Shown: positions 15,153-35,312 of the stretch, piece after piece | Position numbering within the stretch: position 1 is the first letter of the stretch | Layout of the letters: each line of letters starts with the position of its first letter | Assembly: GCF_038632915.1 (NCBI RefSeq) | Contig: NZ_CP152050.1 | Location: forward strand, 1,581,001 to 1,645,000 | Source: Paenisporosarcina sp. FSL H8-0542 | GTDB taxonomy: Bacteria; Bacillota; Bacilli; Bacillales_A; Planococcaceae | Length of the DNA stretch: 64,000 nt | Direction: 5' to 3' | Position numbers and translations under genes: made by a program | Notes under the pieces: model-generated | Seen by the model: only the letters and a program-made list of their open reading frames with translations | The model's database searches: none | What the model was told of the DNA's origin: nothing

Positions 15153-15186
15153 ACTTAAACTAACGGAGCAGGTAAGTTCAATAAGA
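15153..15186 (+). repeat. Hairpin repeat B (variant)
   Basis: A copy of the B half, AAACTAACGGAGCAGG followed by TAAGTTCAATAAG. It lies about 100 bases before the start of a small membrane protein gene. Confidence 0.75.
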
Positions 15187-15286
15187 AGGCTTTTTTGGAA
15201 CGCCGTTGAATAAGTTAATATATGTAAATTTTCGAACAAAAGGGGAAGGTGTTTTAAGGAGTGCTTTATATCAAGGGGGAAATGGA

Positions 15287-15478
15287 GTGGATATTAATAT
15301 CTTAATCTTACCAATGATTAGTACACTGTTAGGTTTGTATTTAGTTTGTCTGGGACTTTGGGAATTAAGAGTTGGTTTAGATAGAAAAAGATTTATAACC
15401 TTCTCGTTTACAGGGCTATTTTTAATCTTCTTATTGCCTGATATTTTTGGGCTACAATTGATTTATAACCCTCAATAA
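15287..15478 (+). CDS. Small two-helix membrane protein
   Basis: 63 residues from GTG 15287, with AAGGGGGA six bases upstream; the same frame is open back to TTG 15206 but without a ribosome site. Two hydrophobic helices flank WELRVGLDRKRF. No family recognised. It sits directly after a B-type hairpin and is followed by another small membrane protein gene. Confidence 0.55.
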   Translation: MDINILILPMISTLLGLYLVCLGLWELRVGLDRKRFITFSFTGLFLIFLLPDIFGLQLIYNPQ

Positions 15479-15505
15479 GGGGGTTGGTTTCTAATTGGTA
15501 AATTA

Positions 15506-15514
15506 TGTTATAAT
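15506..15514 (+). promoter_or_regulatory. Extended -10 promoter element
   Basis: TGTTATAAT, a TG-n-TATAAT extended -10, 26 bases before the start of the 69-aa gene. No clear -35. Confidence 0.5.
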
Positions 15515-15539
15515 TTATTAATAACGGGGGGGTTGAGTG

Positions 15540-15749
15540 ATGAGAACTAAGATTTTTGAATGGATTGGTTTCATTATCGTTTGCGTCTCGATATATGCTA
15601 ATGCATCTTTTCGTGCAGATGGTACTAACACGGGGACAGGAATAAACTTAACAGTAATCGGGATGATTATGGGTGCAGTTCTTACTTTTACTTTTTTCTA
15701 TATTAGGAAGTTTGGAAATAAAGGGGTACATAATAAGTCGACAAATTAA
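15540..15749 (+). CDS. Small two-helix membrane protein
   Basis: 69 residues from ATG 15540 (GTG 15537 is also possible) behind a run of seven G and GAG. Helices at FEWIGFIIVCVSIYA and LTVIGMIMGAVLTFTFFYI, then a basic tail. The design matches short Bacillus integral membrane proteins of unknown function. It has its own extended -10 promoter and a B hairpin just downstream. Confidence 0.6.
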   Translation: MRTKIFEWIGFIIVCVSIYANASFRADGTNTGTGINLTVIGMIMGAVLTFTFFYIRKFGNKGVHNKSTN

Positions 15750-15770
15750 CCTGCTATTTTATCTCAACTT

Positions 15771-15802
15771 CTTTAACTAACGGGGCAGGTTAGTTCAATA
15801 AG
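15771..15802 (+). repeat. Hairpin repeat B
   Basis: TTTAACTAACGGGGCAGG then TTAGTTCAATAAG: the standard B half with loop GGGGCAG between CTAAC and GTTAG. Confidence 0.85.
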
Positions 15803-15835
15803 AGATATTAAATGATGATTAAAAAAATCAATATT

Positions 15836-15863
15836 AAAACCACCAAGTCCGATGGTGGTTTAG
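15836..15863 (-). terminator. Terminator of the minus-strand secreted protein gene
   Basis: Stem AAACCACC with GGTGGTTT over an 8-base loop, directly beyond the stop at 15869 in the minus direction, with a T-rich tail on that strand. Confidence 0.7.
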
Positions 15864-15868
15864 TTTGT

Positions 15869-16327
15869 TTATTTGTAAGGATTTTTGTACAAATGATAAT
15901 GATTTCCACCAAGCAGTACCTTTTTGGTTTCGGCGTCAATCACTACATATTTATGCCATTCTTCTTTTTCATTTTGTTGAAAAGATGCCATAAAATATAC
16001 TTGTCGGTTGGGATGAACATCAGTCTGATGTTTAAGATTCATTTTTTCACTTATAAAATTTGTCTTTTGGTTGAAAGTGAATTCTGCATCAGGAACATCT
16101 TTAAAAGAGAGTTTTTGACGTATACTAAATGCAGCATTCTTATATTCTTGATAGATATTTTTATCTACCTCGTTATAAAATTCATCTTCAACAATAAAAG
16201 ACATACTTTGATTATCCAGGTACTCTAACTTTGGATATGTTAAATCAGATGTTGATGCTTCAGAGATAGGTGTTGGTTGAAAGAGAACGTTAGAAAGAAC
16301 AGCTAAAGTCAGTAATATTATTTTCAT
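15869..16327 (-). CDS. Secreted protein of unknown function
   Basis: 152 residues with a signal peptide (MKIILLTLAVLSNVLFQ…SEA). The mature part contains FYNEVDKNIYQEYKNAA, YFMASFQQ, WHKYVVIDAETKKVLLGG and a C-terminal NHYHLYK. The VIDAETKKVL turn resembles PepSY-like or lipoprotein beta folds, but I do not recognise the family. AAAGGAGGTGAGAAA precedes ATG, a strong site. The plus-strand frame opposite is a shadow. It is one of two minus-strand genes in the repeat-rich region. Confidence 0.7.
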   Translation of the reverse strand: MKIILLTLAVLSNVLFQPTPISEASTSDLTYPKLEYLDNQSMSFIVEDEFYNEVDKNIYQEYKNAAFSIRQKLSFKDVPDAEFTFNQKTNFISEKMNLKHQTDVHPNRQVYFMASFQQNEKEEWHKYVVIDAETKKVLLGGNHYHLYKNPYK

Positions 16328-16431
16328 TTTCTCACCTCCTTTGTATTCACCTTATAATTCCCAGGCTTTTGTTGTTTATGCTAATGAACACAGGCTTTTA
16401 ATTGAATACATTGAGTTGCTTGATCGTTTTT

Positions 16432-16464
16432 TTATTCAACTAACGGGTGCTTTAGTTGAATAAG
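16432..16464 (+). repeat. Hairpin repeat A
   Basis: The best-preserved A half: TTATTCAACTAA, loop CGGGTGCT, then TTAGTTGAATAA, a perfect 12-bp stem. Two AATAAAGTT units resembling the 20-bp arrays follow at about 16484–16515. Confidence 0.9.
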
Positions 16465-16642
16465 AAAAAAGAAAAATGTAGAGTGACAATAAAGTTATTT
16501 AATTTATAATAAAGTTTTTTAAAAAGATAGTGTTAAGTTGGATTTTTATACTATCTTTTCTCATTTTTTTATATAATAACAGTATGATTATTTCGATATT
16601 CGTATAGTATAGGGCAAAATTTGCTTAGATGGAGTGTGTAAC

Positions 16643-17107
16643 GTGATTTTAGTTAGTTCTTGCTTAGCTGGCAATCCAGTAAGATATAATGGTACTTCTT
16701 GTTCAGATAGTACGATACAAAGATTAATTGATGAAAAGAAAGCAATCCCTATTTGCCCTGAGCTTTTAGGTGGGTTCGTTACACCTAGAGAACCTGCTGA
16801 AATTGTAGGGGGAAATGGATTGGATGTTTTAGTAGGCACAGCAAAAGTTATTGAACGATCAGGAAATGATGTGACGGAATTATATCTAATCGGTGCTAAA
16901 AAGACTTTAGAGATAGCAAAAGAAATGAACGTTAAATATGTAGTGTTAAAAGAGTATAGTCCATCTTGTGGCAGTAAAGAAATTTATAATGGTGCGTTTA
17001 TTGGAGAAAAAATAGATGGAATGGGCGTAACAACCGCCTTATTAGAAAGCAATGGCATCAAAGTTATATCTGAACTAGAATTAGCAAATTTAAAAGATGA
17101 AATTTAG
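16643..17107 (+). CDS. DUF523 family protein (YbbK-like)
   Basis: 154 residues from GTG 16643, eight bases after GGAG. The N-terminal ILVSSCLAGNPVRYNG, PICPELLGGFVTPREP and EYSPSCGSKEIYNGAF carry the conserved Cys residues of DUF523, a small soluble family that may bind a metal or iron-sulfur centre. Function is not established. The family normally begins M/V-ILVSACL, which supports this start over GTG 16634. Followed by terminator hairpins, so monocistronic. Confidence 0.88.
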   Translation: MILVSSCLAGNPVRYNGTSCSDSTIQRLIDEKKAIPICPELLGGFVTPREPAEIVGGNGLDVLVGTAKVIERSGNDVTELYLIGAKKTLEIAKEMNVKYVVLKEYSPSCGSKEIYNGAFIGEKIDGMGVTTALLESNGIKVISELELANLKDEI

Positions 17108-17205
17108 GGGGCTATGTTAAATTATTAGTCGTCCAAAATTAATCAACTTTATTATCCTTAAAAAGTCATAAAGCGAATGAAAAATTGAATTTTTTAAACA
17201 GTTCT

Positions 17206-17249
17206 AATAACCATCTATCATTTTATCAGATAGATGGTTATTGCTTTTT
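17206..17249 (+). terminator. Terminator after the DUF523 gene
   Basis: AATAACCATCTATC pairs with GATAGATGGTTATT, followed by a T7 run. Confidence 0.8.
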
Positions 17250-17288
17250 TTGGAACAAAATTAAACGACTTTATAATCTCTAGATAAA

Positions 17289-17320
17289 AAAGCTAACGTC
17301 TGAGAAAAGACGTTAGCTTT
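17289..17320 (-). terminator. Minus-oriented terminator hairpin without a gene
   Basis: Perfect 13-bp stem AAAGCTAACGTCT / AGACGTTAGCTTT with loop GAGAAA; the T tract is on the minus strand. No minus-strand gene lies to its right before 18892. Confidence 0.6.
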
Positions 17321-17380
17321 CAGTATTTACAGGTATGCTCCGCATGTACCGTTTTAACGCAAATAACCCACCATTCCTGT

Positions 17381-17421
17381 AACGCCCAAAACCCTTGATA
17401 TTAAAGGTTTTAGGCGTTTTT
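17381..17421 (+). terminator. Terminator-like hairpin
   Basis: AACGCCCAAAACC pairs with GGTTTTAGGCGTT (one mismatch) and T6 follows. Third hairpin in 220 bases; the stretch 17108–17648 holds no gene. Confidence 0.6.
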
Positions 17422-17465
17422 TGTTTAGGTGTTAAGGTTATAGAAAGAAGGATTAACGCTTTTTT

Positions 17466-17507
17466 TATTGAACTTATTGTACTAACAGGGCAGGTTAGTT
17501 CAATAAG
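17466..17507 (+). repeat. Hairpin repeat B (variant)
   Basis: ACTAACAGGGCAGGTTAG flanked by TTATTG and TTCAATAAG. It precedes the lipoprotein gene at 17649. Confidence 0.75.
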
Positions 17508-17648
17508 CAGGTATATTTAGAAGTACGCCGAAATAGGTAACATAAGGGGATTAGATTGAATTGAAGAATATTTCTATGTGCATTTTTATCATATGTTTAA
17601 AGAATAAACAGACGAAATAAAGGAGGAAATGTCATTTCAATTATTCGA

Positions 17649-18074
17649 TTGAAGAGAATAAGTTTTCTGTTGCTTGTCTTAGTTTTATTACTTTTAGGAT
17701 GTACAGAAGAAAAAGCTAATGATGGAGATTGGAATCTAAGTCCTACATTCAATGTCGATAATCTAACTTTGCATGGAACTGAAGGGAAATTTGGTGTTAT
17801 TAAAGTAAATGGAGAAAGCAATGAACCTGAGTTTCCAGCAAAACAAGGAAGACTTTATGCAGTTTATTTCTTGGATAGTCTCGAAGAAAATGGAAAAAAA
17901 TATAAAATGACAGCTACACATAAAAAAACTGGTGAATCTGTCAAACTTCATGAAAAAAATATTGAAAAGGAACAAAATGGAGCGAAATTCGGATTTGACA
18001 AATTAGGGTTATGGAAAATTGATGTAACTATTGATGAAAAGCCTTATACAAGTTTTGTTGTGGAAGCGAAATAA
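17649..18074 (+). CDS. Small lipoprotein
   Basis: 141 residues from TTG 17649. Signal MKRISFLLLVLVLLLLGC with lipobox LLGC, so a membrane-anchored lipoprotein; the mature domain is beta-rich (FGVIKVNGESNEPEF, GLWKIDVTIDEKPYTSFVVEAK). Family not recognised; possibly Ig-like. The start is uncertain: AAAGGAGG at 17619–17626 is 22 bases from the TTG but seven bases from an in-frame ATT at 17634, which would add SIIR before the lysine. Confidence 0.65.
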   Translation: MKRISFLLLVLVLLLLGCTEEKANDGDWNLSPTFNVDNLTLHGTEGKFGVIKVNGESNEPEFPAKQGRLYAVYFLDSLEENGKKYKMTATHKKTGESVKLHEKNIEKEQNGAKFGFDKLGLWKIDVTIDEKPYTSFVVEAK

Positions 18075-18082
18075 GGGATTGT

Positions 18083-18177
18083 GTTATTCAGCTAACGGAT
18101 GCTTTAGTTAAAGATCATCGTGCCACTTAGCCAACTCTATATCTTATTGAACTAACGAGGCAGTTTAATTCAATAAG
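18083..18177 (+). repeat. Composite hairpin repeat A–B
   Basis: A variant (TTCAGCTAACGGATGCTTTAG) nine bases after the lipoprotein stop, then the B variant TTGAACTAACGAGGCAG… ending TTCAATAAG 28 bases before the next start codon. Confidence 0.8.
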
Positions 18178-18204
18178 CATAAAACAATAAGAGGGGCTGA
18201 AAAA

Positions 18205-18636
18205 TTGGGGGACCATGAGAAATATATTAGTGAAAGGTTCATAGAAATTATTCGTCAACTTGCAGCAGGCGCTTTAGAGCAGGTAAAGTCCGAAATGCCA
18301 GGTTGTATAACCTGTGATTTACTTGTTGATTTTGAATCTTGGTATGAAGATTTCATTAAAATTAACACTTCAACATTATCTGAGAAACAAATGTACTTAC
18401 TTAATGAGATTAATCGCGTTTTTGATGAGATGCTTAAGGATGATGCCTTCAAGTGTTTGTACATTTATTCTGAAGAGGAAATAAAACAAAGCAACTATAA
18501 AGAAATATTAGAGTCTGTTAATTGGAGAACAATAAGATCATTGGCTAATGACTTGCTAATTACATTGGGGGAAGAAAATAAAAAGTTGCAGCAATTTGTC
18601 CAGATTAGTGACAATGTTTGGAGAAAAACAGAATAG
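18205..18636 (+). CDS. Hypothetical soluble protein
   Basis: 143 residues from TTG 18205, with AGAGGGG 12 bases upstream. Mostly helical and acidic; contains CITCDLLVDFESWYEDF and LYIYSEEEIKQ. No family recognised. It sits between a composite A–B repeat (28 bases before its start) and a B repeat (12 bases after its stop), the typical cassette-like position. A contact-dependent immunity-type protein is one guess only. Confidence 0.6.
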   Translation: MGDHEKYISERFIEIIRQLAAGALEQVKSEMPGCITCDLLVDFESWYEDFIKINTSTLSEKQMYLLNEINRVFDEMLKDDAFKCLYIYSEEEIKQSNYKEILESVNWRTIRSLANDLLITLGEENKKLQQFVQISDNVWRKTE

Positions 18637-18647
18637 ACAATGATTTT

Positions 18648-18683
18648 CTTCTTCAACTAACGGGGCAGGTTAGTTGAAGAAGA
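18648..18683 (+). repeat. Hairpin repeat B
   Basis: CTTCTTCAACTAAC, loop GGGGCAG, GTTAGTTGAAGAAG: a perfect 14-bp stem in which both arms differ from other copies in step (TTCTTC/GAAGAA instead of TTATTC/GAATAA). Confidence 0.9.
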
Positions 18684-18849
18684 GGAATGAAAATCCCTTT
18701 TTTAATGTCGCATTTGACACATTTAGCGTCGTTATGGGACCTGTAGGTATTTAGATACCTTTGTACCGGGCGCTTTCCTTTAGGAATGTGTCTTTTACTT
18801 TTTGACCAGAATAGGAAATGGATTTAAGGAAAAACTCATTTTAAATAGG

Positions 18850-18888
18850 GAAACAGACCAAGGGTAATGACTCGGTCTGTTTTTTTAA
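18850..18888 (+). terminator. Terminator hairpin beside the LOG gene
   Basis: AAACAGACC pairs with GGTCTGTTT over a 14-base loop; T7 on the plus strand. It abuts the minus-strand LOG gene stop and may work in both directions. Confidence 0.6.
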
Positions 18889-18891
18889 CTA

Positions 18892-19473
18892 TCAGATCTG
18901 TTTTTCAGTAATGTAAGTTTTTACAGTTGGTGGTTCATATGTATTGAATTTATCAAGAATCCCTTTTGGTTCACTATCGACTAATGCCATGTTACGGTAC
19001 TTTTCATGTAAAAACTGTTCCTCTGACATATGATTAAATACCGCAATAAGAGGATCATAATAATGATTTATATTTAAGAGACCACATGGTTTATGATGGA
19101 GCCCTAACTGAGCCCAAGTAAAAATTTCAAAGAACTCTTCTAAAGTTCCTGGCCCACCAGGCAAAGCTATAAATCCATCAGCAAGCTCTGCCATTTTCGC
19201 TTTTCTCTCATGCATTGAATCTACGATGATCAGCTCTGACAAGTTTTTATGAGCTATCTCTCTATTATCTAGAAAACTTGGCATAACACCAATTACGTAT
19301 CCTCCTTCATTCAGAACTGAATCTGCAACAGCACCCATAATTCCAACACTTGCTCCACCATAAACAAGTGCAATATTTCGTTTAGCTAGTTCTTTACCAA
19401 GTTTTTTCGCACCTTCTATATAGACATCAGATGCTCCGTTACTCGATCCACAAAATACGGCTAACTTTTTCAA
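18892..19473 (-). CDS. LOG-family nucleotide phosphoribohydrolase
   Basis: 193 residues. Rossmann-like fold with VFCGSSNGASDVY, VYGGASVGIMG and the catalytic PGGPGTLEEFFE motif (PGGxGTxxE) of LONELY GUY proteins, formerly annotated as lysine decarboxylases (YvdD in B. subtilis). They hydrolyse nucleoside 5'-monophosphates to base plus ribose 5-phosphate. Ribosome site GGAGG precedes the start. Divergent from the MazG-like gene; both act on nucleotides, so a house-cleaning pairing is possible. Confidence 0.9.
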   Translation of the reverse strand: MKKLAVFCGSSNGASDVYIEGAKKLGKELAKRNIALVYGGASVGIMGAVADSVLNEGGYVIGVMPSFLDNREIAHKNLSELIIVDSMHERKAKMAELADGFIALPGGPGTLEEFFEIFTWAQLGLHHKPCGLLNINHYYDPLIAVFNHMSEEQFLHEKYRNMALVDSEPKGILDKFNTYEPPTVKTYITEKQI

Positions 19474-19562
19474 TATATTCGCCTCCTAAAGAAACACACC
19501 ATTAAAGATTATATAATACTTTCATTTTTTTGATAAACTTAAAGTATTGAATTGGAGGTTAG

Positions 19563-19889
19563 ATGAAAATGAATGTAACTGAATTTCAACAATGGGTAAA
19601 GGATTATTATGAAAGTAGGGGCTGGTCTGAGTTAGACATATTTATTCGTATTGGCTTTTTAGCAGAAGAAACGGGCGAGGTTGCACGAGCTATAAGAGCT
19701 CTTGAGATTGGTAGGGATAGGCCTGATGAAATAAGGGGCTCTTATGAGGAAAATAAACAGGAGTTAACTGAAGAGTTAGGAGATGTACTGGGTAATTTAA
19801 TTGTGATTGCAAACAAGTACAATATCCCACTAGAAGAAGTGTTTCAGTCACATAAAAAGAAACTCTCAGATCGTTATTCTAATGATTAG
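19563..19889 (+). CDS. MazG-like nucleotide pyrophosphohydrolase
   Basis: 108 residues, a single MazG domain: FLAEETGEVARAI and ELTEELGDVLGNLIVIANKY give the EExxE…ExxD magnesium-binding set. Such proteins hydrolyse (d)NTPs to NMPs. GGAGG lies close upstream of the ATG at 19563; ATG 19569 is an equally good start. Followed by a composite A–B repeat carrying an insertion sequence. Confidence 0.85.
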   Translation: MKMNVTEFQQWVKDYYESRGWSELDIFIRIGFLAEETGEVARAIRALEIGRDRPDEIRGSYEENKQELTEELGDVLGNLIVIANKYNIPLEEVFQSHKKKLSDRYSND

Positions 19890-20026
19890 GAAAATAAACC
19901 TTTTTTCAACAATAGGGCGCATTTCTTGAGTAAGTGCGTCTTTTTGAATTTGGCCAGATAATTTAATAACACTTGGAAGATAATTTGGATACTTATGTTT
20001 AAAAGTAGAGATTGTGAAGAAATGTA

Positions 20027-20104
20027 CTTAAACTAACGGGTGCTTTAGTTAAAGATCATCGGGCTGATTATTCAGCCCTTTTTCTTATTGAACTAACGGG
20101 GCAG
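20027..20104 (+). repeat. Composite A–B repeat, B half split by an IS
   Basis: A half, then a GGGCTGATTATTCAGCCC terminator hairpin with T5, then the left part of B ending CGGGGCAG at 20104. The right part (GTTAGTTCAA) resumes at 21861, after the IS110-type element. Confidence 0.85.
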
Positions 20105-20210
20105 CATTCCTGTTTGAAGGATTTGTGCCATCTTGAAAGAAAAAAAGCCCTCTAGTATGATGTGAGTGTCAACGACCATTGACCCATCAGCTAACTAGGA
20201 GGACTTCTCT

Positions 20211-21488
20211 ATGCAGTTTAAATGCAATGAAAAAATTAATCAAGTGACTGAAAATACACTCGTTGTCGGTATGGATATTGCCAAGCGTGTTCATTATGCG
20301 TGCTTTGTCGATGAACGAGGGCGTGTGATTGAAAAATCCTTTGCAGTAAATCAATCAAAAGAAGGCTTTGAAAGTTTGTATGAAAAGATTCGTCAAACCA
20401 TGAAGGAAGCTAAGAAAACAGACGTTATCGTTGGAATTGAGCCTACAGGCCACTATTGGATGAACTTGGCTTATTTCTTAGGTAACTATGGCATTCCACT
20501 CGTCATGGTAAATCCAATGCACGTCAAACGTTCGAAGGAACTGGACGATAATTTACAAACAAAGAACGACAAAAAAGATGCGTTGGTCATCGCACGCTTA
20601 TTGAAGGATGGCCGTTTTAGTTATCCACGTTTGTTAAAAGAGGTAGAAGCTGAACTTCGTATCGGATCTACTCTCCGTTCAAAGTTAACGGAAGATTTAG
20701 CGAGTATTAAAAATCGAATCGTCCGTTGGCTTGATCGCTATTTTCCAGAGTTTACTCAAGTCTTTCCGTCTTTTGGAAAGATGGCGTTGGCGGCATTGGA
20801 AATGACTCCATTTCCACAGGATATTGAAGGGAAAACAGCTGAGGAGTTGGTTTTTCTATACCGTGAGGTAGAGGGTATGAGAACGCCACAGTTGCCGAAA
20901 GCAAAGCTTCTCATTGAAGCTTCGACTAACTCAATCGGCCTGAAAGAAGGAGAAAAGATGGCCCGACATGAAATCGCCACGCTCCTACGTCAGTATCGCT
21001 TATTAGAAACCGAAATTGCCTCTGTAAATAATCAATTAGCCGAAATGGCACAAACAACAATGGAATATGAGTTACTCAGTTCCGTTCCTGGTTTAGGAGA
21101 TGCGACGATTGTTGATTTACTTTCTGAAGTAGGGAGCTTTTCACTTTATGAAAATCCACGCCAACTTATCAAACTAGCGGGATTAACACTACGTGAAAAC
21201 TCGTCTGGTCAACATAAGGGACAAAAACATATCTCGAAAAGAGGGCGAAAGAAACTCAGATATATCCTCTTCAAAGTAATAGTTCCACTCATACGTCATA
21301 ACGCGGCGTTTAAACAGCTTCATGAATACTACACAACACGCAAACAAAATCCCTTACGGGGTAAGCAATCAATGGTGGTCTTGTGCGGTAAATTACTGAA
21401 AGTATTACATGGCATATGTAAAAAGAAAGTCCATTTTAATGAGCAGTATATGATGAAGGATCTTTACTGCCTCTCAGAGGCAGCGTAA
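20211..21488 (+). CDS. IS110-family transposase (bridge-RNA-type recombinase)
   Basis: 425 residues. The N-terminal RuvC-like DEDD domain has GMDIAK (D22), GIEPTGHYW and NDKKDALVIARLL. The C-terminal Transposase_20 domain has a helix-hairpin-helix (SSVPGLGDATIVDLLSEVG) and the ENSSGQHKGQ segment with the conserved serine used for strand exchange, then HISKRGRKKLR. Full length, no frameshift, AGGAGG before ATG: probably active. Members use an RNA from the element's non-coding end to choose the target. Confidence 0.93.
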   Translation: MQFKCNEKINQVTENTLVVGMDIAKRVHYACFVDERGRVIEKSFAVNQSKEGFESLYEKIRQTMKEAKKTDVIVGIEPTGHYWMNLAYFLGNYGIPLVMVNPMHVKRSKELDDNLQTKNDKKDALVIARLLKDGRFSYPRLLKEVEAELRIGSTLRSKLTEDLASIKNRIVRWLDRYFPEFTQVFPSFGKMALAALEMTPFPQDIEGKTAEELVFLYREVEGMRTPQLPKAKLLIEASTNSIGLKEGEKMARHEIATLLRQYRLLETEIASVNNQLAEMAQTTMEYELLSSVPGLGDATIVDLLSEVGSFSLYENPRQLIKLAGLTLRENSSGQHKGQKHISKRGRKKLRYILFKVIVPLIRHNAAFKQLHEYYTTRKQNPLRGKQSMVVLCGKLLKVLHGICKKKVHFNEQYMMKDLYCLSEAA

Positions 21489-21858
21489 ACATTTCGATGA
21501 TCGATTTATGACAAGAAGGATGACACGGAGAAGCCAGCAACATAACTAAACTAAGACCATGAGTCCCCGGGGCAGCTTAGCAGGCCTCTGCCTTATGAAT
21601 AGACCAAACGAAGGAATGTAAGCGCACTGACGCTAAGAGACATGGGAGGGTCCGTCATCATAAGTTTCGCAGAGATCCATTGTGCATCACATAATGGCAA
21701 AGAAAAGCTAATGATTTCCATTAGTTTTAGCGAAGCGTACTCTTAAGTTGGTAATAAAAACTATATATTCAAATCTATGTTTATTGAAACCGTCAAAAAT
21801 ATTTTTCCTCACATCACGAAGTGATGTAAACCGTTGATACATCAATGTTTATAGAGGG
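21489..21858 (+). ncRNA. Candidate bridge-RNA region of the IS110 element
   Basis: The 370-base non-coding tail is unusually long and richer in GC than its surroundings in its first 180 bases. It contains short stems (CTAAG/CTTAG, GCAG/CTGC, ACATCAC/GTGATGT). Bases 21568–21580 read CGGGGCAGCTTAG against the target CGGGGCAGGTTAG, 12 of 13 identical across the insertion point. IS110-type elements encode a guide RNA in a non-coding end; exact RNA ends and fold are not determined. Confidence 0.5.
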
Positions 21859-21870
21859 AGGTTAGTTCAA
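21859..21870 (+). repeat. Right remainder of the split B repeat
   Basis: AGGTTAGTTCAA, the right arm of the B hairpin whose left arm ends at 20104. Confidence 0.75.
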
Positions 21871-21906
21871 GATGAACAAAATTAAACGTAATTGAGGGAG
21901 AGAAAG

Positions 21907-22313: not shown

Positions 22314-22320
22314 CTTCTTT

Positions 22321-22414
22321 CTTATTCAACTAACGGGTGCTTTAGTAAAAATCATCGGGCTGCTTAGGCAGCTTTTTTTCTTATTGAACTAACGTGGCAG
22401 TTTAGTTGAATAAG
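22321..22414 (+). repeat. Composite hairpin repeat A–B
   Basis: A half (CTTATTCAACTAACGGGTGC), a GGGCTGCTTAGGCAGCTT terminator hairpin with T run, then B (TTGAACTAACGTGGCAG…TTGAATAAG). Confidence 0.85.
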
Positions 22415-22508
22415 AAGGTTTTTTTTCGAATGTGTTGAATAAGTTAATAAATGTAAATTATTGAACAAAAGGGTGCATTACTTCAAGTCTGGGGAGTAGC
22501 ACTTTTTC

Positions 22509-22525
22509 TTGAACTAACGGGGCAG
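22509..22525 (+). repeat. Half B repeat fused to a coding fragment
   Basis: TTGAACTAACGGGGCAGG without its right arm; coding-like sequence follows immediately. Confidence 0.7.
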
Positions 22526-22812
22526 GCTATGGCATTGGTTTTAAATTTCAGGATAGAAGTAGTGGTATAACCTATTCGGGACATAAGGGTAGTGCTTGGA
22601 TGTATTTCACATGGTATAGTGGCACTCCTTACGGGTATGCGATGAATTACCGTTCAGTATATGCCCACACATGGAAAACCACATCACTCACGGGATTCGA
22701 GATAGGTCAAGAATCATTTGGCTTGACTTGGACATCTAAGGATTATAGATTTCCTAAAGAGGTGTACAGCGTGGTACAATATTGGAATAAAAAGGTAGGA
22801 TATGAGGTGTAG
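22514..22812 (+). pseudogene. 5'-truncated secreted-protein fragment
   Basis: An open frame runs from the B repeat to a TAG at 22812 without a start or ribosome site. It reads GYGIGFKFQDRSSGITYSG, then GSAWMYFTWYSGTPYGYAMN and ends VVQYWNKKVGYEV: Gly- and aromatic-rich like the C-terminus of an exported beta-rich protein such as a bacteriocin-type peptide. The family-like part begins exactly where the repeat ends, so the 5' part was lost by an event at the repeat. The next gene starts six bases downstream and may be its former partner. Confidence 0.5.
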
Positions 22813-23821: not shown

Positions 23822-24010
23822 AAACTAACGGGTGCTTTAGTTGAAGTTTCGATTTCCGAAATAATAAAATATTTTTATAAAAGTGAATAGCAATAAACAG
23901 GTAAAACCTTGTATTTTGATCAAACTTTGTTCAAAATACGAGGTTTATTTTTCACCTAAAAATTGAGGATTCTCGCTAAATTTTAATCAATCTTTATTCA
24001 AAGGTTACAT
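23822..24010 (+). repeat. A hairpin plus long element (family 2)
   Basis: A half with stem TAAACTAA…TTAGTTGAA, then about 165 bases nearly identical to 35117–35310, including the hairpin with arms ACCTTGTATTTTGA and TCAAAATACGAGGT, and CTCGCTAAATTTTAATCAAT. Confidence 0.85.
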
Positions 24011-27350: not shown

Positions 27351-27430
27351 TATTGAACTAACGGGGGCTTTACTTCAATAAGGAGTGAAGCCTTTTTTCT
27401 TATTGAACTAACGGGGCAGGTTAGTTGAAA
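27351..27430 (+). repeat. Composite hairpin repeat A–B (variant A)
   Basis: TTGAACTAACGGGGGCTTTACTTCAATAAGG, broken A half, then a GGAGTGAAGCCTTTTTT stretch and a full B (TTGAACTAACGGGGCAGG, TTAGTTGAA). Confidence 0.75.
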
Positions 27431-27889: not shown

Positions 27890-28050
27890 TATCGCTTTAT
27901 GTGTCTTTTGCTTAATATTACCTGCATGTTCGACTAGGCAGAGCTGTTATAATATTTCATTGAAGAAGGTTGTACGTTCCACTTAAACCAAACTGTTGAC
28001 AATTAGATAACCAAAGAATGGTATCGAAGTCGTAAAATTAAAAGCGTACT

Positions 28051-28084
28051 AAAGAGTCTGCTGATCACAGGCTCTTTTATTTTT
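28051..28084 (+). terminator. Terminator-like hairpin
   Basis: AAAGAGTCTG pairs with CAGGCTCTTT (one G-T) around CTGATCA, T-rich tail. No gene immediately upstream; 27890–28050 appears empty. Confidence 0.6.
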
Positions 28085-28128
28085 GTTAACTTGACTAAAT
28101 GGACCTACAAATAAGTAGGTGAGCTGCA

Positions 28129-28257
28129 ATGAAGAATAAAGTATATATAATTTTTTACATATTATTTTTTATGAATAATCCAGTACGAATGTTAGATAAG
28201 ACCATTAGATTCCTTGTTAAACTAACGGGTGCTTTAGTTGAAGAAGGACTTATATAA
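28129..28257 (+). CDS. Possible 42-aa membrane peptide reading into an A repeat
   Basis: ATG 28129 follows TAGGTGAGCTGCA. The peptide starts MKNKVYIIFYILFFM, hydrophobic, and its last 12 codons are encoded by the A repeat (KLTGALVEEGLI). Either a real small peptide that acquired its end from the repeat, or chance. Low confidence. Confidence 0.25.
   Translation: MKNKVYIIFYILFFMNNPVRMLDKTIRFLVKLTGALVEEGLI
28213..28243 (+). repeat. Hairpin repeat A
   Basis: TTAAACTAACGGGTGCTTTAG then TTGAAGAAG: A half without B, 52 bases before the next start codon. Confidence 0.8.
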
Positions 28258-28294
28258 TATGCTGAATAATAATTTATGAAAAGGTGTTCTAACA

Positions 28295-29047: not shown

Positions 29048-29068
29048 GGGATTAATTTTTTTTTGTTT

Positions 29069-29152
29069 TCTTATTGAACTAACGGTGCTTTACATCAATA
29101 AGGGGTAAAGCCTTTTTCTTATTCAACTAACGGGGCAGGATAGTTGAAGAAG
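29069..29152 (+). repeat. Composite hairpin repeat A–B (variant A)
   Basis: TTGAACTAACGGTGCTTTACA variant A, GTAAAGCCTTTTTC, then B: TTCAACTAACGGGGCAGG, ATAGTTGAAGAAGG. Confidence 0.8.
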
Positions 29153-29200
29153 GAATGATATAATCTTATTAATAAAAATTAAGGAAAAGTAGGATAGAAA

Positions 29201-30067: not shown

Positions 30068-30160
30068 AGGTATTAGTACGGATAAAACAATTGCTGTTGA
30101 AGATAACGGTAAATATATAAAGGCAAATAGGAACGGAAAATACGGAGAAAAGTGATTTTT

Positions 30161-30238
30161 CTTATTCAACTAACCGGTGCTTTAGCAAAGAACAATGAGT
30201 TGCGTAGGCAACTCATTTTGATTATTGAACTAACGGGC
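30161..30238 (+). repeat. Composite hairpin repeat A–B (B right arm missing)
   Basis: A (TTCAACTAACCGGTGCTTTAG), the hairpin ATGAGTTGCGTAGGCAACTCAT, then TTGAACTAACGGGCTT where B breaks off. 30068–30388 has no other gene; a short in-frame tail after 30067 is noise. Confidence 0.75.
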
Positions 30239-30388
30239 TTCCCCTGGCTTCGTGTGTCGCTTGCTTAGATAAAAAGGATTAAAAGCGTGTGAATTTAACG
30301 TGGTTTAATGAAACCCAAATCATTTAACTGTTTATTTTTACCTATATTCTTAATAGAAAAGGAAAATAATAAGTAATGGAGGATGAAA

Positions 30389-30739
30389 ATGAAAAAATTA
30401 GTTTCTGTTATTTTTATTTTGGTCTTTTTTGTTGCGGCAGGCGGTTACTATTATACAAGTGTAGATAACAATTATACTGTTTTAAAAGAATTTTATGATT
30501 TCCCTATCCCAAAAGATGCAAAACCTGAAAGTGAAAGTTCAAAAGGAAAAGGTTTTACTTGGGGAAAATCCAAAGGAACAGAAATACCACTTAGTTATGG
30601 TTTGGTAATTATTAAATCGGGGTGGGACCAGGTGGAAATAGACGGTCATAATGTTGTCTATGAAAAGGATGGCAAATTAATTAATCTTACACTTGCTCCA
30701 AAGTATTTAGGTATATTAGAGGTTGAAGATTTAAAGTAA
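30389..30739 (+). CDS. Small exported protein
   Basis: 116 residues from ATG 30389, six bases after GGAGG; ATG 30383 touches that site. N-terminal helix (LVSVIFILVFFVAAGGYYY), then an exported domain with FYDFPIPKDAKPESES, SYGLVIIKSGWDQVEIDGHNVVY. This resembles Bacillus proteins in which an N-terminal anchor carries a small alpha-beta domain. Family unnamed to me. Confidence 0.6.
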   Translation: MKKLVSVIFILVFFVAAGGYYYTSVDNNYTVLKEFYDFPIPKDAKPESESSKGKGFTWGKSKGTEIPLSYGLVIIKSGWDQVEIDGHNVVYEKDGKLINLTLAPKYLGILEVEDLK

Positions 30740-30776
30740 ATTGATTTTTACAGTCTTATTAAACATTCCATAATCA

Positions 30777-30842
30777 AAAGGCACTTCCATTAAGAAATGG
30801 TTTAATTAAAACCATTAGAATTACGGGGAGTGTCTTTTTTTA
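30777..30842 (+). terminator. Branched terminator hairpin
   Basis: GGCACTTCC pairs with GGGGAGTGTC (G-T pairs allowed), an inner AAATGGTTT/AAACCATT stem sits in the loop, and T7 follows. Confidence 0.6.
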
Positions 30843-30999
30843 TTCACTTCTATTAAAACAGTCTGAAAATAAATTCATTCGCTTAACTGTTTTTGAAATG
30901 CTAGATTATTATGCTGAAAAATTAAGGTTAAATAGACAAAATATCAAAGAAGATTCTATTTCACCAGCTCCTTGGGGACCTGAATTGAGTCCACAGTGA
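30840..30999 (+). pseudogene. Coding remnant without start
   Basis: Open frame ending TGA at 30999 reads SENKFIRLTVFEMLDYYAE, KLRLNRQNIKEDSIS and PAPWGPELSPQ. The composition is protein-like but there is no start or ribosome site. Likely the C-terminal scrap of a lost gene; family unknown. Confidence 0.35.
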
Positions 31000-31019
31000 A
31001 TAAACTTTCGAGAAGATCC

Positions 31020-31112
31020 TTATTAAACTAACAGGTGCTTTAGTTATAGTCCATCTGGCTGTTTACGCAGCCCTTTTCTTATTGAACTAACGGGGCAGGT
31101 TAGTTGAATAAG
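31020..31112 (+). repeat. Composite hairpin repeat A–B
   Basis: A (TTAAACTAACAGGTGCTTTAG), GGCTGTTTACGCAGCCC hairpin with T4, then a perfect B (TTGAACTAACGGGGCAGG, TTAGTTGAATAAG). Confidence 0.88.
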
Positions 31113-31182
31113 AAGGAAGTATTAAGAGAGTGCCAAATTGGTGTAAATGTAAATAATAGTTTTCGAATGGGGGGCTTTAATC

Positions 31183-31503
31183 TTGAAAAAAGATTATAAG
31201 AAAATTGGGTTAGGTTCGATTTCATTATTGCTATTTATAATTGGAATATTATTTTCCATTTCATTCGGTAATCGAGAGTCCTATGGAGATGGTTTATTAA
31301 GATTTTTAGGGTTAAATCCTTGGTCAAACGGTGACAATGGATTGCATTATACAATATTTTATTCACTTATTTTCTATATACCAGCATTGATTCTGGGTTA
31401 CAAGTTCAAAAATGACTTTGGAGCAAAATTAGGTAAAAACTTATCTTTGAGTTTGATTATCTTAATCTTAATTTTAGCCCTGTTGTTTTTTATAGGGGTT
31501 TAG
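31183..31503 (+). CDS. Small three-helix membrane protein
   Basis: 106 residues from TTG 31183 with GGGGGG nine bases upstream. Three hydrophobic helices (ISLLLFIIGILFSISF, YTIFYSLIFYIPALILGY, LSLSLIILILILALLFFIGV) and a Gly-rich loop RESYGDGLLRFLGLNPW. Family not recognised. It sits between two composite A–B repeats. Confidence 0.6.
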   Translation: MKKDYKKIGLGSISLLLFIIGILFSISFGNRESYGDGLLRFLGLNPWSNGDNGLHYTIFYSLIFYIPALILGYKFKNDFGAKLGKNLSLSLIILILILALLFFIGV

Positions 31504-31522
31504 TTCAACAGAAGTTTAAGTT

Positions 31523-31614
31523 GTTCAACTAACGGGTGCTTTAATTAAAGATGATCGGGCTGTTTAAACAGCCCTTTTTCTTTTTTGAACTAACGGGGCA
31601 GGTTAACTCAATAA
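31523..31614 (+). repeat. Composite hairpin repeat A–B
   Basis: A (TTCAACTAACGGGTGCTTTAA), GGGCTGTTTAAACAGCCC with T5, B (TTGAACTAACGGGGCAGG, TTAACTCAATAAG). A starts 20 bases after the preceding stop. Confidence 0.88.
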
Positions 31615-31741
31615 GGAAATTAATCAATAAATGGTTAATTTAATCAATTAAATAAGAACATAAACTCGTGAGTTTTGTTACAATTACTTACTTGAGCAGT
31701 TGATTAACATAGCAAGTTAAACAGCAGAAAGAGGCAATGCA

Positions 31742-32644
31742 ATGACAAAGTTTATGTATATATTTTGCTTAATCGTGTGGGGACTTAATTTTATTGCGGT
31801 GAAAATCCAAGGAACACCTGTCAGTTTGGAATTATCCTTAACCTATCGTTTAATTATTACAGCCTTATTATTTTTAGTTCTTGTATGGTTCCTTAGACCA
31901 AAGGGGAGACCAAAAAGAAAAGATATCCCGTTTGTAATAGTGTTCGGTATATGTAACTTTGCATTAAGCTACCTGTGCTTTTATTACGCCACCATTTTGA
32001 GTTCTGCGGCAATAGTAACATTGGTCTTCTCGTTAAAAGTGATACTGACTCCAATCGCTCTCCGAGTTTTTTTAAAAGAAAAATTACATTCACGCGTTTT
32101 AATTGGGGGGGTTTTTGGGGTATTGGGCGTATGTATTCTCATTTATCCCACATTGAACAATTTTCAAGGGTTTAATGAGATAAAAGGAATTGTGGTTGCT
32201 TTCATAGGTACGCTTCTTACAGCAGTTGGTGACGCCAGCTCGGCAAGAAATGCCAGTAGGAGGGTTGATCCTATCTATGCGAATGCCATTGGATTTACAG
32301 TAGCCAGTATATTAATGGGGTCCATTGTATTGATTCAAGGACAAGAAATAACAATTCCAACGTCTGTTTCATACGTATCCGCGTTGCTTTATTTAACCCT
32401 GGTTGCTTCGTTCGCTGCCTGGTTGTTCTACTTAAAGCTTATAGAAACAATTGGGGGATCTCAAAGTGGTTATATGGTCGCCCTTTTCCCGGTCATTGGA
32501 GGAATAGCTTCTGTATTAATCGGTGAATCAGATCCGTCATTGTTTTTGTTTGCTGGTTGTCTGTTTAGTTGCATTGGGGCTGCCATTGCTTTAGGTTTTG
32601 GAATTCGACGTCAGAATGTTAAGTTGCCTGTAAATGCTGATTAA
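31742..32644 (+). CDS. EamA-family (DMT) transporter
   Basis: 300 residues, ten helices in two EamA repeats. WGLNFIAVKIQG at the N-terminus, IVTLVFSLKVILTPIALRVFLKEKL in the first repeat and GGSQSGYMVALFPVIGGIASVLIGE in the second are typical. Substrate unknown; such proteins export amino acids or metabolites. AGAGG lies nine bases before ATG. Complete and apparently functional, flanked by composite repeats on both sides. Confidence 0.88.
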   Translation: MTKFMYIFCLIVWGLNFIAVKIQGTPVSLELSLTYRLIITALLFLVLVWFLRPKGRPKRKDIPFVIVFGICNFALSYLCFYYATILSSAAIVTLVFSLKVILTPIALRVFLKEKLHSRVLIGGVFGVLGVCILIYPTLNNFQGFNEIKGIVVAFIGTLLTAVGDASSARNASRRVDPIYANAIGFTVASILMGSIVLIQGQEITIPTSVSYVSALLYLTLVASFAAWLFYLKLIETIGGSQSGYMVALFPVIGGIASVLIGESDPSLFLFAGCLFSCIGAAIALGFGIRRQNVKLPVNAD

Positions 32645-32674
32645 GAATGGGCTTATTTATAAAAATCTTAAAAA

Positions 32675-32740
32675 GCTAACGGGTGCTTTAGTTAAAGATC
32701 GCTATTTTTCTTATTGAACTAACGGAGCAGGTTAGTTGAA
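32675..32740 (+). repeat. Composite hairpin repeat A–B
   Basis: A (AAGCTAACGGGTGCTTTAG) and B (TTGAACTAACGGAGCAGG, TTAGTTGAA) with a shortened spacer lacking the middle hairpin. Confidence 0.8.
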
Positions 32741-32841
32741 CCATGGAAGCGGTCAGGAAGAAATTACATGAGGTTATAACCTAAAAATAGAAGTATTCTA
32801 TAAAGGATATATTAATAGCCATCGAATAGGAGTAATCACCT

Positions 32842-33120
32842 TTGAATTATGTTAGATTTTTTATTTATCAATTCATCATATTTTCAGCACTTTTTGCTAT
32901 CAACATTCCCTTTGATAAATACATAAGTAAACCATTTACATTTGTTGATTTTATAGCAATATGTATAAAGTTACTTCTCATAGTAGTCGTTTATCGAGTA
33001 TTAAAAAATATATATAGACAATTCGATAATATTAGATTACGGAATAAAATATTAATTTCAATACCAATTGTAATATTGTCAATCCTGTTTATAGGGTTAC
33101 TGGAGCAACTGTTCGTTTAG
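32842..33120 (+). CDS. Small three-helix membrane protein
   Basis: 92 residues from TTG 32842 behind AGGAGTAATCACC. Helices at FFIYQFIIFSALFAINI, FVDFIAICIKLLLIVVVYRVL and ILISIPIVILSILFIGLL with a basic loop (KNIYRQFDNIRLRNK). No family recognised. The A repeat begins seven bases after its stop. Confidence 0.55.
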   Translation: MNYVRFFIYQFIIFSALFAINIPFDKYISKPFTFVDFIAICIKLLLIVVVYRVLKNIYRQFDNIRLRNKILISIPIVILSILFIGLLEQLFV

Positions 33121-33126
33121 TTTTCT

Positions 33127-33158
33127 TGTTCAACTAACGGGTGCTTTAGTTCAATAAG
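33127..33158 (+). repeat. Hairpin repeat A
   Basis: TTGTTCAACTAACGGGTGC, TTTAGTTCAATAAG. Instead of B, a family-2-like hairpin follows. Confidence 0.85.
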
Positions 33159-33210
33159 AACCAAGAAAATAATCAAACTTTTTTATAAAAACTTTATATT
33201 AAAATTACAA

Positions 33211-33255
33211 GAAAGAATCCATTTTGTTAAATCTTTTTTCAAAATGGATTCTTTT
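33211..33255 (+). repeat. Family-2-like hairpin with terminator form
   Basis: Arms GAAAGAATCCATTTT and AAAATGGATTCTTTT around GTTAAATCTTTTTTC, then T-rich. Further on, CGCTCATTCTTTATTTGAA and GTTACACTAA match the ends of the family 2 elements loosely. Confidence 0.7.
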
Positions 33256-33425
33256 TATTATTTTTAAATATTGAAGTTCTGTTTGAACTTTCGCTCATTC
33301 TTTATTTGAAAGTTACACTAAAGAGTAAATAACAAAAAATTCTAGAAATTTTTTGAGAATAAAATGTAAGACTGTTCGTTGTACATTATGAAAAAGCTTT
33401 TTCAATCACATAAGGAGCGAAGCAA

Positions 33426-33983
33426 ATGAAAAGTTCATCGACCAACAATAGATTAAAAAAACAAAAAGAAGATGCACTGGAGTATATCATTGATGCCTAT
33501 ATGCCACTCGTGAAAACGATTGCTTCAAAAATTTTACACAATATGAAGCGACCAGATATTGATGAATGTATCAATGATGTTTTTCTAACGGTATGGCAAA
33601 ATGCTCATCAGTTTCAAGGTGATACACTAGACTTTAAAAAATGGATTGGCATGATTACGAAATACAAAGCAATCGATCGATATCGGCACGCTGAAAAACA
33701 AATCGCACATGAACAATCTGATGCACCACTCGAACAAAAAGCAAGCTCCCTACAAACAGATATATCCGTCTTGCAACGAGAAGAAAAAAATGAATTACTA
33801 CTGGCAATCAGTCAACTAGAGGAAATTGATCGAGATATTTTTATGATGAAATATTATATGGAGCTACCAAACAGTGAAATTGCCAATGCACTCCGGCTAA
33901 CGAAAGCTGCTGTTGATAACCGCCTATATCGAGGTAAGAAGATACTAGCTAAAAACATGAATCTAAAGGAGCGATTCGTATGA
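33426..33983 (+). CDS. ECF-type RNA polymerase sigma factor
   Basis: 185 residues. Region 2 (IIDAYMPLVKTIASKILHNM…DIDECINDVFLTVWQNAHQF…WIGMITKYKAIDRYR) and region 4 (LEEIDRDIFMMKYYMELPNSEIANALRLTKAAVDNRLYRGKK) are intact. AAGGAGCG precedes ATG. Its stop overlaps the start of the DUF4179 gene (ATGA), the usual arrangement of sigma and its membrane anti-sigma partner. Confidence 0.9.
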   Translation: MKSSSTNNRLKKQKEDALEYIIDAYMPLVKTIASKILHNMKRPDIDECINDVFLTVWQNAHQFQGDTLDFKKWIGMITKYKAIDRYRHAEKQIAHEQSDAPLEQKASSLQTDISVLQREEKNELLLAISQLEEIDRDIFMMKYYMELPNSEIANALRLTKAAVDNRLYRGKKILAKNMNLKERFV

Positions 33984-35008
33984 GCATGAAAGAATGGATT
34001 GATTTAGATATCGATAAACTTGAGCTACTAGAGGTGACAGATATCGAGAAAGCACGAGTTAAACAAAATGTACTTAATAAGCGTAAAAAAGCACCAGTTT
34101 GGCGTCATATTGCAGTCGCTGCAGTTATGATTGTTGGTGCCACAACGGCAACCGGTTTTGCATTCCCGTCTTTTGCATCACAAATTCCATTTATGGACAA
34201 TGTCGTTAGTTATTTTAATAACGAAGAGCAAGACTACAAAAATTCCGAGTCCTTCTCTACTGATATTGGTCTTGCGCAGACGAGTAATGGTGTTACCGTC
34301 ATGATTGATAATGCGGTATATGACGGCACGAACATTACAGTTTCTTTTGCGATTGAAACTAATCATGATTTTGGAAAAGCGATGCATATGAGTGCTCCAA
34401 ATTGGTTTAATGCTGTCGGTGCAACCAGTACTAGTGGTGGCAGTAGTCAAATTACAAAGATTAGTGATACACGCTATGTGGGCATATCAACATTAACCCC
34501 AAGCTTCAAAAATGATGTATATCCTGAAAATGTAGAAGTCACTTGGACGCCTCATGCCTTTTATAGTATGTCTAATGATTTAGAGGTTGAGGGAGATTGG
34601 TCGTTCGCCTTTTCATTAAAGCGTTTAGAAGGAGATATACAGCTCGTGAATAAAACTGTACAGCAAAAAGACGTGAGCTTCACGCTTCAATCTGTTGAAT
34701 TTACAGATGTTTCAACCGTTATTTTATACGAACAAGTGGTAACTGATGAACTGTTAAAAGAGTGGCCAAGTGTGTCACCTGTTTTCTATGTAACCGATGA
34801 TCTCGGTCATGTGTATTTGAATGGCTCGGGTGGTTCAGGTATGTCACCTGATAGTGGAAAAACATTTAACGGAACGACCGCACTTGGCGCTATCCAAGAA
34901 GGTGCTAGCCAGCTCATCATTCAGCCTGTTGAAATTGCGAGTCTCATGTCCGGAAAAGGTCATATCGAAATTAAGCTTGATCCGATTATCGTTGACTTAA
35001 AAAAATAA
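33980..35008 (+). CDS. DUF4179 membrane protein, probable anti-sigma factor
   Basis: 342 residues. A cytoplasmic N-terminus of about 45 residues (LDIDKLELLEVTDIEKARVKQ), one helix (HIAVAAVMIVGATTATGFAF), then an extracytoplasmic DUF4179 domain (VSYFNNEEQDYKNSESFSTDIGLAQTSNGVTV, about 120 residues) and a second beta-rich domain. Such proteins sit next to ECF sigma genes and hold the sigma factor until a cell-surface signal arrives. Signal unknown. A terminator follows. Confidence 0.85.
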   Translation: MSMKEWIDLDIDKLELLEVTDIEKARVKQNVLNKRKKAPVWRHIAVAAVMIVGATTATGFAFPSFASQIPFMDNVVSYFNNEEQDYKNSESFSTDIGLAQTSNGVTVMIDNAVYDGTNITVSFAIETNHDFGKAMHMSAPNWFNAVGATSTSGGSSQITKISDTRYVGISTLTPSFKNDVYPENVEVTWTPHAFYSMSNDLEVEGDWSFAFSLKRLEGDIQLVNKTVQQKDVSFTLQSVEFTDVSTVILYEQVVTDELLKEWPSVSPVFYVTDDLGHVYLNGSGGSGMSPDSGKTFNGTTALGAIQEGASQLIIQPVEIASLMSGKGHIEIKLDPIIVDLKK

Positions 35009-35012
35009 CAGC

Positions 35013-35065
35013 GAAAGCCCCCGTAGAAATTCGGCTGTTGTCTAACATTTACAGGGGCTTTTTTG
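35013..35065 (+). terminator. Terminator after the sigma operon
   Basis: GAAAGCCCC … GGGGCTTTTTTG with a 30-base loop region that may branch. Confidence 0.7.
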
Positions 35066-35116
35066 CAATGAACTTCCACTATTAGAATCTGTTTTTGGTA
35101 TAGAAAATGCAGGTGG

Positions 35117-35312
35117 CTTATTCAACTAACGGGTGCTTTAGTTGAAGATTCGATTTCCGAAATAATCAATCTTTTTTATAAAAGTAAATAGCAATGAACA
35201 GGTGAAACCTCTTATTTTGATCAAACTTTGTTCAAAATAAGAGGTTTGTTTTTCACCAAAAAATTGAGGATTCTCGCTAAATTTCTATCAATCTTTATTC
35301 AAAGGTTACAGT
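35117..35312 (+). repeat. A hairpin plus long element (family 2)
   Basis: TTATTCAACTAACGGGTGC, TTTAGTTGAAG, then about 165 bases matching 23840–24010. Its hairpin arms are ACCTCTTATTTTGA and TCAAAATAAGAGGT. Confidence 0.88.

Follow-up and report, generated by a model that had tools for sequence, protein, structure and literature searches.

We analysed a stretch of 64,000 nucleotides from Paenisporosarcina sp. FSL H8-0542, here called the window, which spans 1581001–1645000 of a single-contig 3.63-Mb genome, and find that its region between 15.1 and 35.2 kb is very probably one of several cassette arrays of a Bacillales tyrosine-recombinase cassette system. Each segment running from one recombination site to the next would act as a cassette, with the right half of a site at its start (type A, ..TGCTTTAGT; type B, ..GCAGGTTAGTT) and the common left arm (..AACTAAC) at its end. 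B-type segments would carry genes; A-type segments would be either units of ~49, 60 or 105 bp, many of which contain a terminator hairpin, or a module of ~1 kb with an antisense recombinase gene. A XerA-like recombinase of ~280 amino acids would connect one segment's left arm with another's right half within the 10-bp stretch AACTAACGGG, and segments would in this way be deleted, inserted and shuffled. Support at the level of sequence comes from a site-bounded replacement between strains, a 10-bp interval of exchange, the independent assortment of genes and spacers, and a recombinase residing in arrays. An earlier note on this DNA had likened the region to a gene-cassette array built on sites other than classical attC sites, a suggestion which the replacement, the exchange interval and the array-resident recombinase support.

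The A and B motifs are imperfect palindromes of ~20 bp with the arms AACTAAC/GTTAGTT and two alternative centres. The A pattern (TTCAACTAA-N8-TTAGTTGAA, ≤3 mismatches) matches the window 12 times where 0.16 would be expected, at 16435–35146 in eleven cases and at 51107, without the conserved centre, in the twelfth; the B pattern likewise matches 12 times (0.04 expected), all at 15160–32735 and none elsewhere in the window. Relaxing the patterns to ≤4 mismatches gives 14 A and 12 B sites on the + strand, all of them within 15.1–35.2 kb. The repeat array that the earlier note placed here is thus borne out, and its statement that almost no copies lie outside holds for the window but fails chromosome-wide, where 147 B matches (both strands) and 134 A matches were counted at ≤3 mismatches, with none for either reversed control, many of them grouped in further clusters. 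All nine A–B composites that the note had named are present in the sequence, although B is interrupted by an insertion sequence (IS) at 20027 and truncated at 30161; a tenth, degenerate composite lies at 22464/22512. Stop codons just before A sites are confirmed for the open reading frames (ORFs) ending at 18074, 23802, 29047, 31503, 32644 and 33120. Along the strand, a B site is usually followed by a gene, an A site, a short spacer and the next B site. With 20 further site-bearing stretches of the same genome, the window makes up a set of 221 site matches (a few second-strand readings included) containing 52 composites, in which the spacing between A and B falls into narrow classes: 58–61 bp in 33, 48–50 bp in 13, 105 bp in three and other values in three. 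Site strand follows the GC skew of the stretch, + where the skew is positive and − where it is negative, the exceptions being two sites in stretch L037, four in L053 and one in L050.

Two sequence contexts recur at these sites. The left-hand context TTGTGAA-N7-ACTTAA stands directly 5′ of the left arm at window positions 15133–15157 and 20006–20030 and at many recombinase loci. It was found at 17/308 and 104/589 sites, with weak enrichment at array starts (3/33 and 28/112 there), and also 5′ of B in the 105-bp composites. A repeat of ~200 bp which begins at an A site and ends at no recognised site occupies 23816–24015 and 35117–35316, and occurs again in stretches L044 and L054.

Paenisporosarcina sp. 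HGH0030, which belongs to the same species, matches window positions 5046–15803 at 98.6% and 35119–64000 at 98.8%. Between these flanks lie 19.3 kb in the window and 6.2 kb in HGH0030, the latter carrying an intact gene for a tyrosine recombinase of ~280 amino acids, and the two fillings have in common only a 155-bp stretch (94%) and the ~200-bp repeat adjoining the last A. The breakpoints are the B site at 15775 and the A site at 35124, and in both strains they fall 18 bp from the B centre and 15 bp from the A centre. The swapping of gene content with breaks at A or B, which the earlier note had put forward for checking, is therefore seen between two strains of one species. In other arrays compared between the same two genomes, homologous blocks end, in both strains, at sites at 1721396 (A) and at 1765007, 1770008 and 1786171 (B), as does a 572-bp unit (1729327–1729898; A and B) of which HGH0030 also carries a second copy. 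The left part shared at 1783332 runs up to a B site, followed by two gene segments, in one strain and up to an A site in the other, and homology restarts 38 bp beyond an A centre.

We also compared the arrays of the window genome with each other and with those of the congener Paenisporosarcina sp. OV554. From 171 homologous blocks, 35 IS110 blocks and 49 outside arrays were left out; of the 348 ends of the 87 blocks kept, 159 lie ≤25 bp from a site, as against 21.4 ± 6.0 (maximum 49) in 500 controls with shifted sites, and ten blocks have all four ends at sites (control mean 0.004). A strict screen for indels placed 17 of 49 candidates at sites; a looser one, in which 54/141 seemed site-bounded, was discarded because most of these matched the composite alone. 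The 139 composites that lack IS110 include 17 pairs with a flank in common, six of them upstream only, nine downstream only and two the spacer plus the downstream flank, with no pair sharing upstream flank and spacer and none sharing both flanks. Another 174 pairs have only the spacer in common, and identical spacers occur at up to four places. Short spacers therefore assort as independent units.

The place of exchange within the site was read from 628 sites of the window genome, OV554, 16 named loci (L144–L159) and the plasmid L138, a set that leaves out 110 second-strand or overlapping readings and ten IS-flanked sites. Among pairs of these sites, 312 share the downstream but not the upstream side and 263 the reverse; the centre is of undetermined type in 34 and ten of them, respectively. 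Pairs sharing the upstream side are alike at the base before the arm (0.75 vs 0.29 for reference pairs drawn from these sites), but positions 8 and 9, which vary within the centre, show no such likeness (0.59 vs 0.63 and 0.69 vs 0.75). Pairs sharing the downstream side are random before the arm (0.28 vs 0.30) and alike from position 10 onward (0.87 vs 0.60). The centre type switches in 15/253 typed upstream-sharing pairs and in 0/278 typed downstream-sharing pairs, many of the latter stemming from few sequence families. On these comparisons the centre type goes with the downstream side, and exchange maps to AACTAACGGG, which is common to both site types. An exchange at the two ends of the centre would be expected to give some downstream-sharing switches, and the absence of any among the 278 suggests exchange at a single point. 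Circular cassettes may be the intermediates.

A search for a recombinase, as the earlier note had recommended, led to one tyrosine recombinase family which in array-rich relatives sits inside the arrays, antisense. At five loci (L104–L108) and on the Sporosarcina plasmid L138, an A site lies within ~70 bp past the recombinase stop codon and a B site ~70–80 bp before the start of the gene or its remnant; the L109 stretch stops short of the recombinase stop codon and shows the B site only. The family is found in many Planococcaceae and Bacillaceae. A genome scan gave 433 relatives among 497 stretches, and sites were analysed at the best 78 loci, which come from Paenisporosarcina, Psychrobacillus, Lysinibacillus, Sporosarcina, Neobacillus, Bacillus, Oceanobacillus and others. 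At these best 78 of 433, 779 of 800 sites point opposite to the recombinase gene and 21 in the same direction (reversed control, 28); flanking sites were recognised on both sides at 25 loci, on one at 32 and on neither at 21, and the pattern finds a B-type site ≤130 bp before the recombinase start at 42. By eye, in most among the matches listed, the sequence on the recombinase side is conserved as far as the sites and varies past them. Presence of the family also tracks the sites: among 61 relatives, a recombinase match (E ≤ 1e-50, intact or broken) occurs in 6/7 genomes with at least ten B matches and in 1/54 with fewer, the latter match being a distant one. Across 261 sampled genomes of the window's family, 77 have a match at E ≤ 1e-70, counting partial genes, and at least ten B matches are found in 38/77 of these and in 18/184 negative genomes (odds ratio 9.0, p 1e-11). 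It is this array-borne recombinase that would catalyse the exchange.

Both intact proteins examined pass the XerA-type model NF040815 (223.1 and 225.3 bits, cut-off 220) and fall far short of the integron integrase model TIGR02249 (97.0 and 93.0 bits, cut-off 265), which leaves them outside IntI. The nearest solved structures are XerA by sequence (4a8e) and by fold (5hxy, Foldseek), with IntI4 at rank 7. The predicted fold has a mean predicted local distance difference test score (pLDDT) of 86.7 and a predicted template modelling score (pTM) of 0.60, and because of the latter its domain packing is uncertain. As to the insertion that marks the catalytic domain of IntI, the recombinase has 279 residues and the IntI4 chain 320; Foldseek alignments run to 321–326 columns against IntI4 and 265–288 against XerA. 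A plasmid labelled Arthrobacter citreus NEB 577 (L139), an actinomycete label that may be wrong, encodes a recombinase 67% identical to the Paenisporosarcina one and carries an array with different site centres, and 37 IMG/VR contigs (L221–L257) encode relatives of 27–69% identity. A third type of recombinase (L060) was rejected as a candidate, occurring in array-poor genomes and not in the array-rich genome G012.

Several observations weigh against the cassette reading. Same-species breaks at 1724209, 1737866, 1787915 and, on the window-genome side, 1726312 are not at recognised sites; neither are 189/348 block ends or 32/49 candidate indels, and some of the 17 site-located indels rest on blocks of ~100 bp. 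In 19 downstream-sharing B pairs, positions 8 and 9 are no more alike than in the reference, so the exchange is placed no finer than the 10-bp stretch. At least one flanking site is unrecognised by the Paenisporosarcina pattern at 53/78 recombinase loci, and by eye about a dozen loci among the matches listed have no B-side site. Of the 77 recombinase-positive genomes, 39 have fewer than ten pattern matches, and 18/184 negative genomes reach that number. Many of the counted recombinase matches are partial or interrupted, and some weaker ones are longer proteins of 330–390 amino acids. Finally, no intact recombinase of the array-borne family was found in the window genome, which has no match at E ≤ 1e-70. 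It retains 293 bp that match the 5′ end of the HGH0030 recombinase gene region at 96.6% identity, and a fragment whose likeness to the family was judged by eye. With no intact recombinase found in its genome, the window array may now be static or served in trans.

Other explanations have to account for the same arrays. The simpler reading in the earlier note, a family of miniature inverted-repeat transposable elements or repetitive extragenic palindromes, would make the composites non-autonomous transposons or terminator repeats at the edges of genes that do not move as units, in keeping with short palindromes, some with terminators, that are located just past stop codons. It predicts insertion between conserved neighbours, yet none of the 17 flank-sharing pairs keeps both flanks; genes are exchanged within the species with breaks at sites, the exchange is located inside the site, and we regard this reading as extremely improbable. 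Homologous recombination between dispersed repeats, aided by DNA uptake and with no site-specific enzyme acting now, could draw on the ~20 bp that the repeats have in common and agrees with the lack of an intact recombinase in the window genome. However, 20 bp is short for RecA-type exchange, and the limitation of exchange to ~10 bp, a centre type that never goes with the upstream side in typed pairs and a recombinase held within arrays in one orientation make this account distinctly unlikely.

A true but diverged integron, in which composites are attC sites recombining as folded single strands and the recombinase is IntI, would explain the divergent recombinase with an attI-like B site ~70–80 bp upstream, the array of cassettes, and a site orientation that, going by GC skew, follows replication. 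The proteins nevertheless reach only 97 and 93 bits where the IntI model demands 265, their nearest solved structures are XerA, and the spacers, unlike attC, do not stay with the gene upstream of them, no pair having both in common. The arms that would pair in a folded composite are without clear covariation: as a proxy for attC-like folding, the value for 142 composites was reached by 129 and 196 of 1000 shuffles, and the 48–50-bp class gave a weak signal, reached by 55 and 19 of 1000. We consider a diverged integron very unlikely. The window genome also contains, at ~2454073–2457420, three adjacent tyrosine recombinases of 435, 380 and 325 amino acids whose layout is like that of RIT (recombinase in trio) elements. 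If this trio or host XerC/XerD acted on the sites, the array-borne recombinase would be a passenger; the trio does lie ~3.5 kb from the closest site of one array, and XerC/XerD-like proteins are present in the genome. As a general enzyme the trio was rejected, since none of the further array-rich genomes tested has a strong match to its middle protein; a strong match was found in 1/60 other genomes (G019), which has a single B match, whereas the array-borne family tracks site-rich genomes and is flanked by sites. Action by the trio or by XerC/XerD is accordingly very unlikely, and an array-borne XerA-like recombinase is the reading that we retain.

The cargo and the features of the array are collected in the table below. 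Pfam searches of 20 array ORFs left ten without a match above the cut-off and identified one as an IS110 transposase. Named cargo comprises a 2-thiouracil desulfurase-like protein, a LOG-like/TIGR00730 protein with a MazG-like partner, a 62-residue GNAT piece, a GntR/aminotransferase regulator with an ATP-grasp D-Ala-D-Ala ligase-like protein, an EamA transporter, and an extracytoplasmic function (ECF) sigma factor with a DUF4179 protein. On a Metabacillus plasmid, a pair annotated as LOG and MazG lies in the same orientation 2–3 kb from a 49%-identical recombinase match, a correspondence of compared annotations, not of aligned sequences. In the fetched array stretches of the window genome, an IS110-family element interrupts the centre of the B site, in 7/7 copies at one and the same base (window, L039, L044, L049, L050, L052 and L054). 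IS1111 elements of integrons target attC, and the targeting of the B centre resembles this. Many short spacers have, by eye, a hairpin and a T-run, and the window array has 27 terminator-like sites, counting both strands, against 11.4 ± 3.3. Scanned for promoters, the array gave 66 matches, fewer than the 79.7 in shuffles, and decides nothing on a Pc-type array promoter; gene cassettes may bring their own promoters. No tRNA was found in the window. Outside the array, an Rfam scan of the window gave one T-box leader (38858–39068, − strand, 96.6 bits), and two tandem ORFs of ~1390 amino acids (52242–56423 and 57052–61224) are 74% identical in DNA.

Features of the proposed cassette array, in window coordinates
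Feature	Position	Strand	Basis or remark
B-type site, first of the array	15158..15178	+	Motif; 3.9-kb indel here relative to a paralogous HGH0030 segment
B-type site, left breakpoint between two strains	15775..15795	+	Motif, strain comparison
A-type site without following B	16438..16457	+	Motif
B-type site	17480..17500	+	Motif
A–spacer–B composite, 60-bp class	18090..18170	+	Motif spacing
B-segment gene, no Pfam match	18205..18636	+	94.6% homologue in another array of the same genome
B-type site	18655..18675	+	Motif
TIGR00730/LOG-like gene (−) and MazG-like gene (+)	18892..19889	both	Pfam/annotation
A–spacer–B composite, B split by IS110-family element	20031..20104	+	Motif
IS110-family element in B-site centre, right end approximate	20105..21857	+	Pfam, copy comparison
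A–spacer–B composite, 59 bp	22328..22407	+	Motif spacing
Degenerate A–spacer–B composite, 48 bp	22464..22532	+	Motif spacing
A-type site, followed by ~200-bp repeat also present after A at 35124	23823..23842	+	Motif, repeat comparison
A–spacer–B composite, 50 bp, spacer identical to three others	27356..27426	+	Motif, spacer comparison
A-type site immediately 5′ of gene	28220..28239	+	Motif
A–spacer–B composite, 48 bp	29077..29145	+	Motif spacing
A–spacer–B composite, truncated B	30168..30237	+	Motif
A–spacer–B composite, 59 bp	31026..31105	+	Motif spacing
A–spacer–B composite, 61 bp	31527..31608	+	Motif spacing
EamA transporter gene of B-type segment	31742..32644	+	Pfam
A–spacer–B composite, 43 bp	32674..32737	+	Motif spacing
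A-to-A unit, ECF sigma factor and DUF4179/DUF5643 protein	33124..35148	+	94% copy between A sites in another array of the same genome
A-type site	33132..33151	+	Motif
A-type site, last of the array, right breakpoint between two strains	35124..35143	+	Strain comparison

Taken further, it seems rather probable that the Bacillales evolved a second, independent integron, in which a XerA-derived recombinase assembles more than 100 cassettes per genome in two interlocking classes, genes and terminators, and is itself a cassette of the terminator class; this would be a major unnamed route of gene exchange across the Planococcaceae and Bacillaceae. No description of such a system was found in open-access PubMed Central, a search that leaves subscription papers and preprints outside. 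The system would explain the swapping of small accessory genes in these bacteria, where recombinase matches, partial genes included, occur in 77/261 genomes of the window's family and in many Bacillaceae. It would represent an apparently independent origin of cassette shuffling, to be compared with integrons, and it offers a recombinase whose sites are short and defined. With two intact recombinases in HGH0030 and none found in the window strain, the pair of strains from one species makes the mechanism directly testable.

Among known systems, the recombinase falls in the broad group of simple tyrosine recombinases to which RIT elements also belong; the parts of the source seen describe RITs as transposable elements with three recombinases and do not mention cassette arrays (PMC8138268). 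The dif (pdif) modules of Acinetobacter plasmids are likewise small accessory modules between simple Xer-type sites; in the portions consulted, these are reported to have two module classes, C and D (PMC13141974), to have sites targeted by insertion sequences (PMC10132070) and to use XerCD (PMC12907356). In the arrays described here, by contrast, the recombinase gene lies within the array, the sites of any one array share nearly without exception a single direction, and single chromosomes hold more than 100 sites; the array-borne recombinase argues against an identity with dif modules served by host XerC/XerD. With integrons the system has in common long arrays of small genes, often of no known function, a tyrosine recombinase gene that is read away from the array and has a site shortly before its start, arrays that in some cases have no intact recombinase, and an insertion sequence aimed at the recombination site. 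It differs in its XerA-like enzyme of ~280 amino acids, in simple sites of ~20–27 bp and two types, in short spacers that assort separately, in cassettes on both sides of the recombinase, and in its Bacillales hosts. Integrons are described as extremely rare in Firmicutes, and in the part of the IntegronFinder 2.0 paper available to us one complete integron (Limnochorda pilosa) and a few clusters of attC sites lacking an integrase (CALIN) are given for the whole phylum (PMC9024848). Because the XerA model is passed and the integron-integrase models are far missed, with a predicted fold nearest to XerA and arms that show no clear attC-like covariation, the system is not filed as an integron, yet it would appear to work like one.

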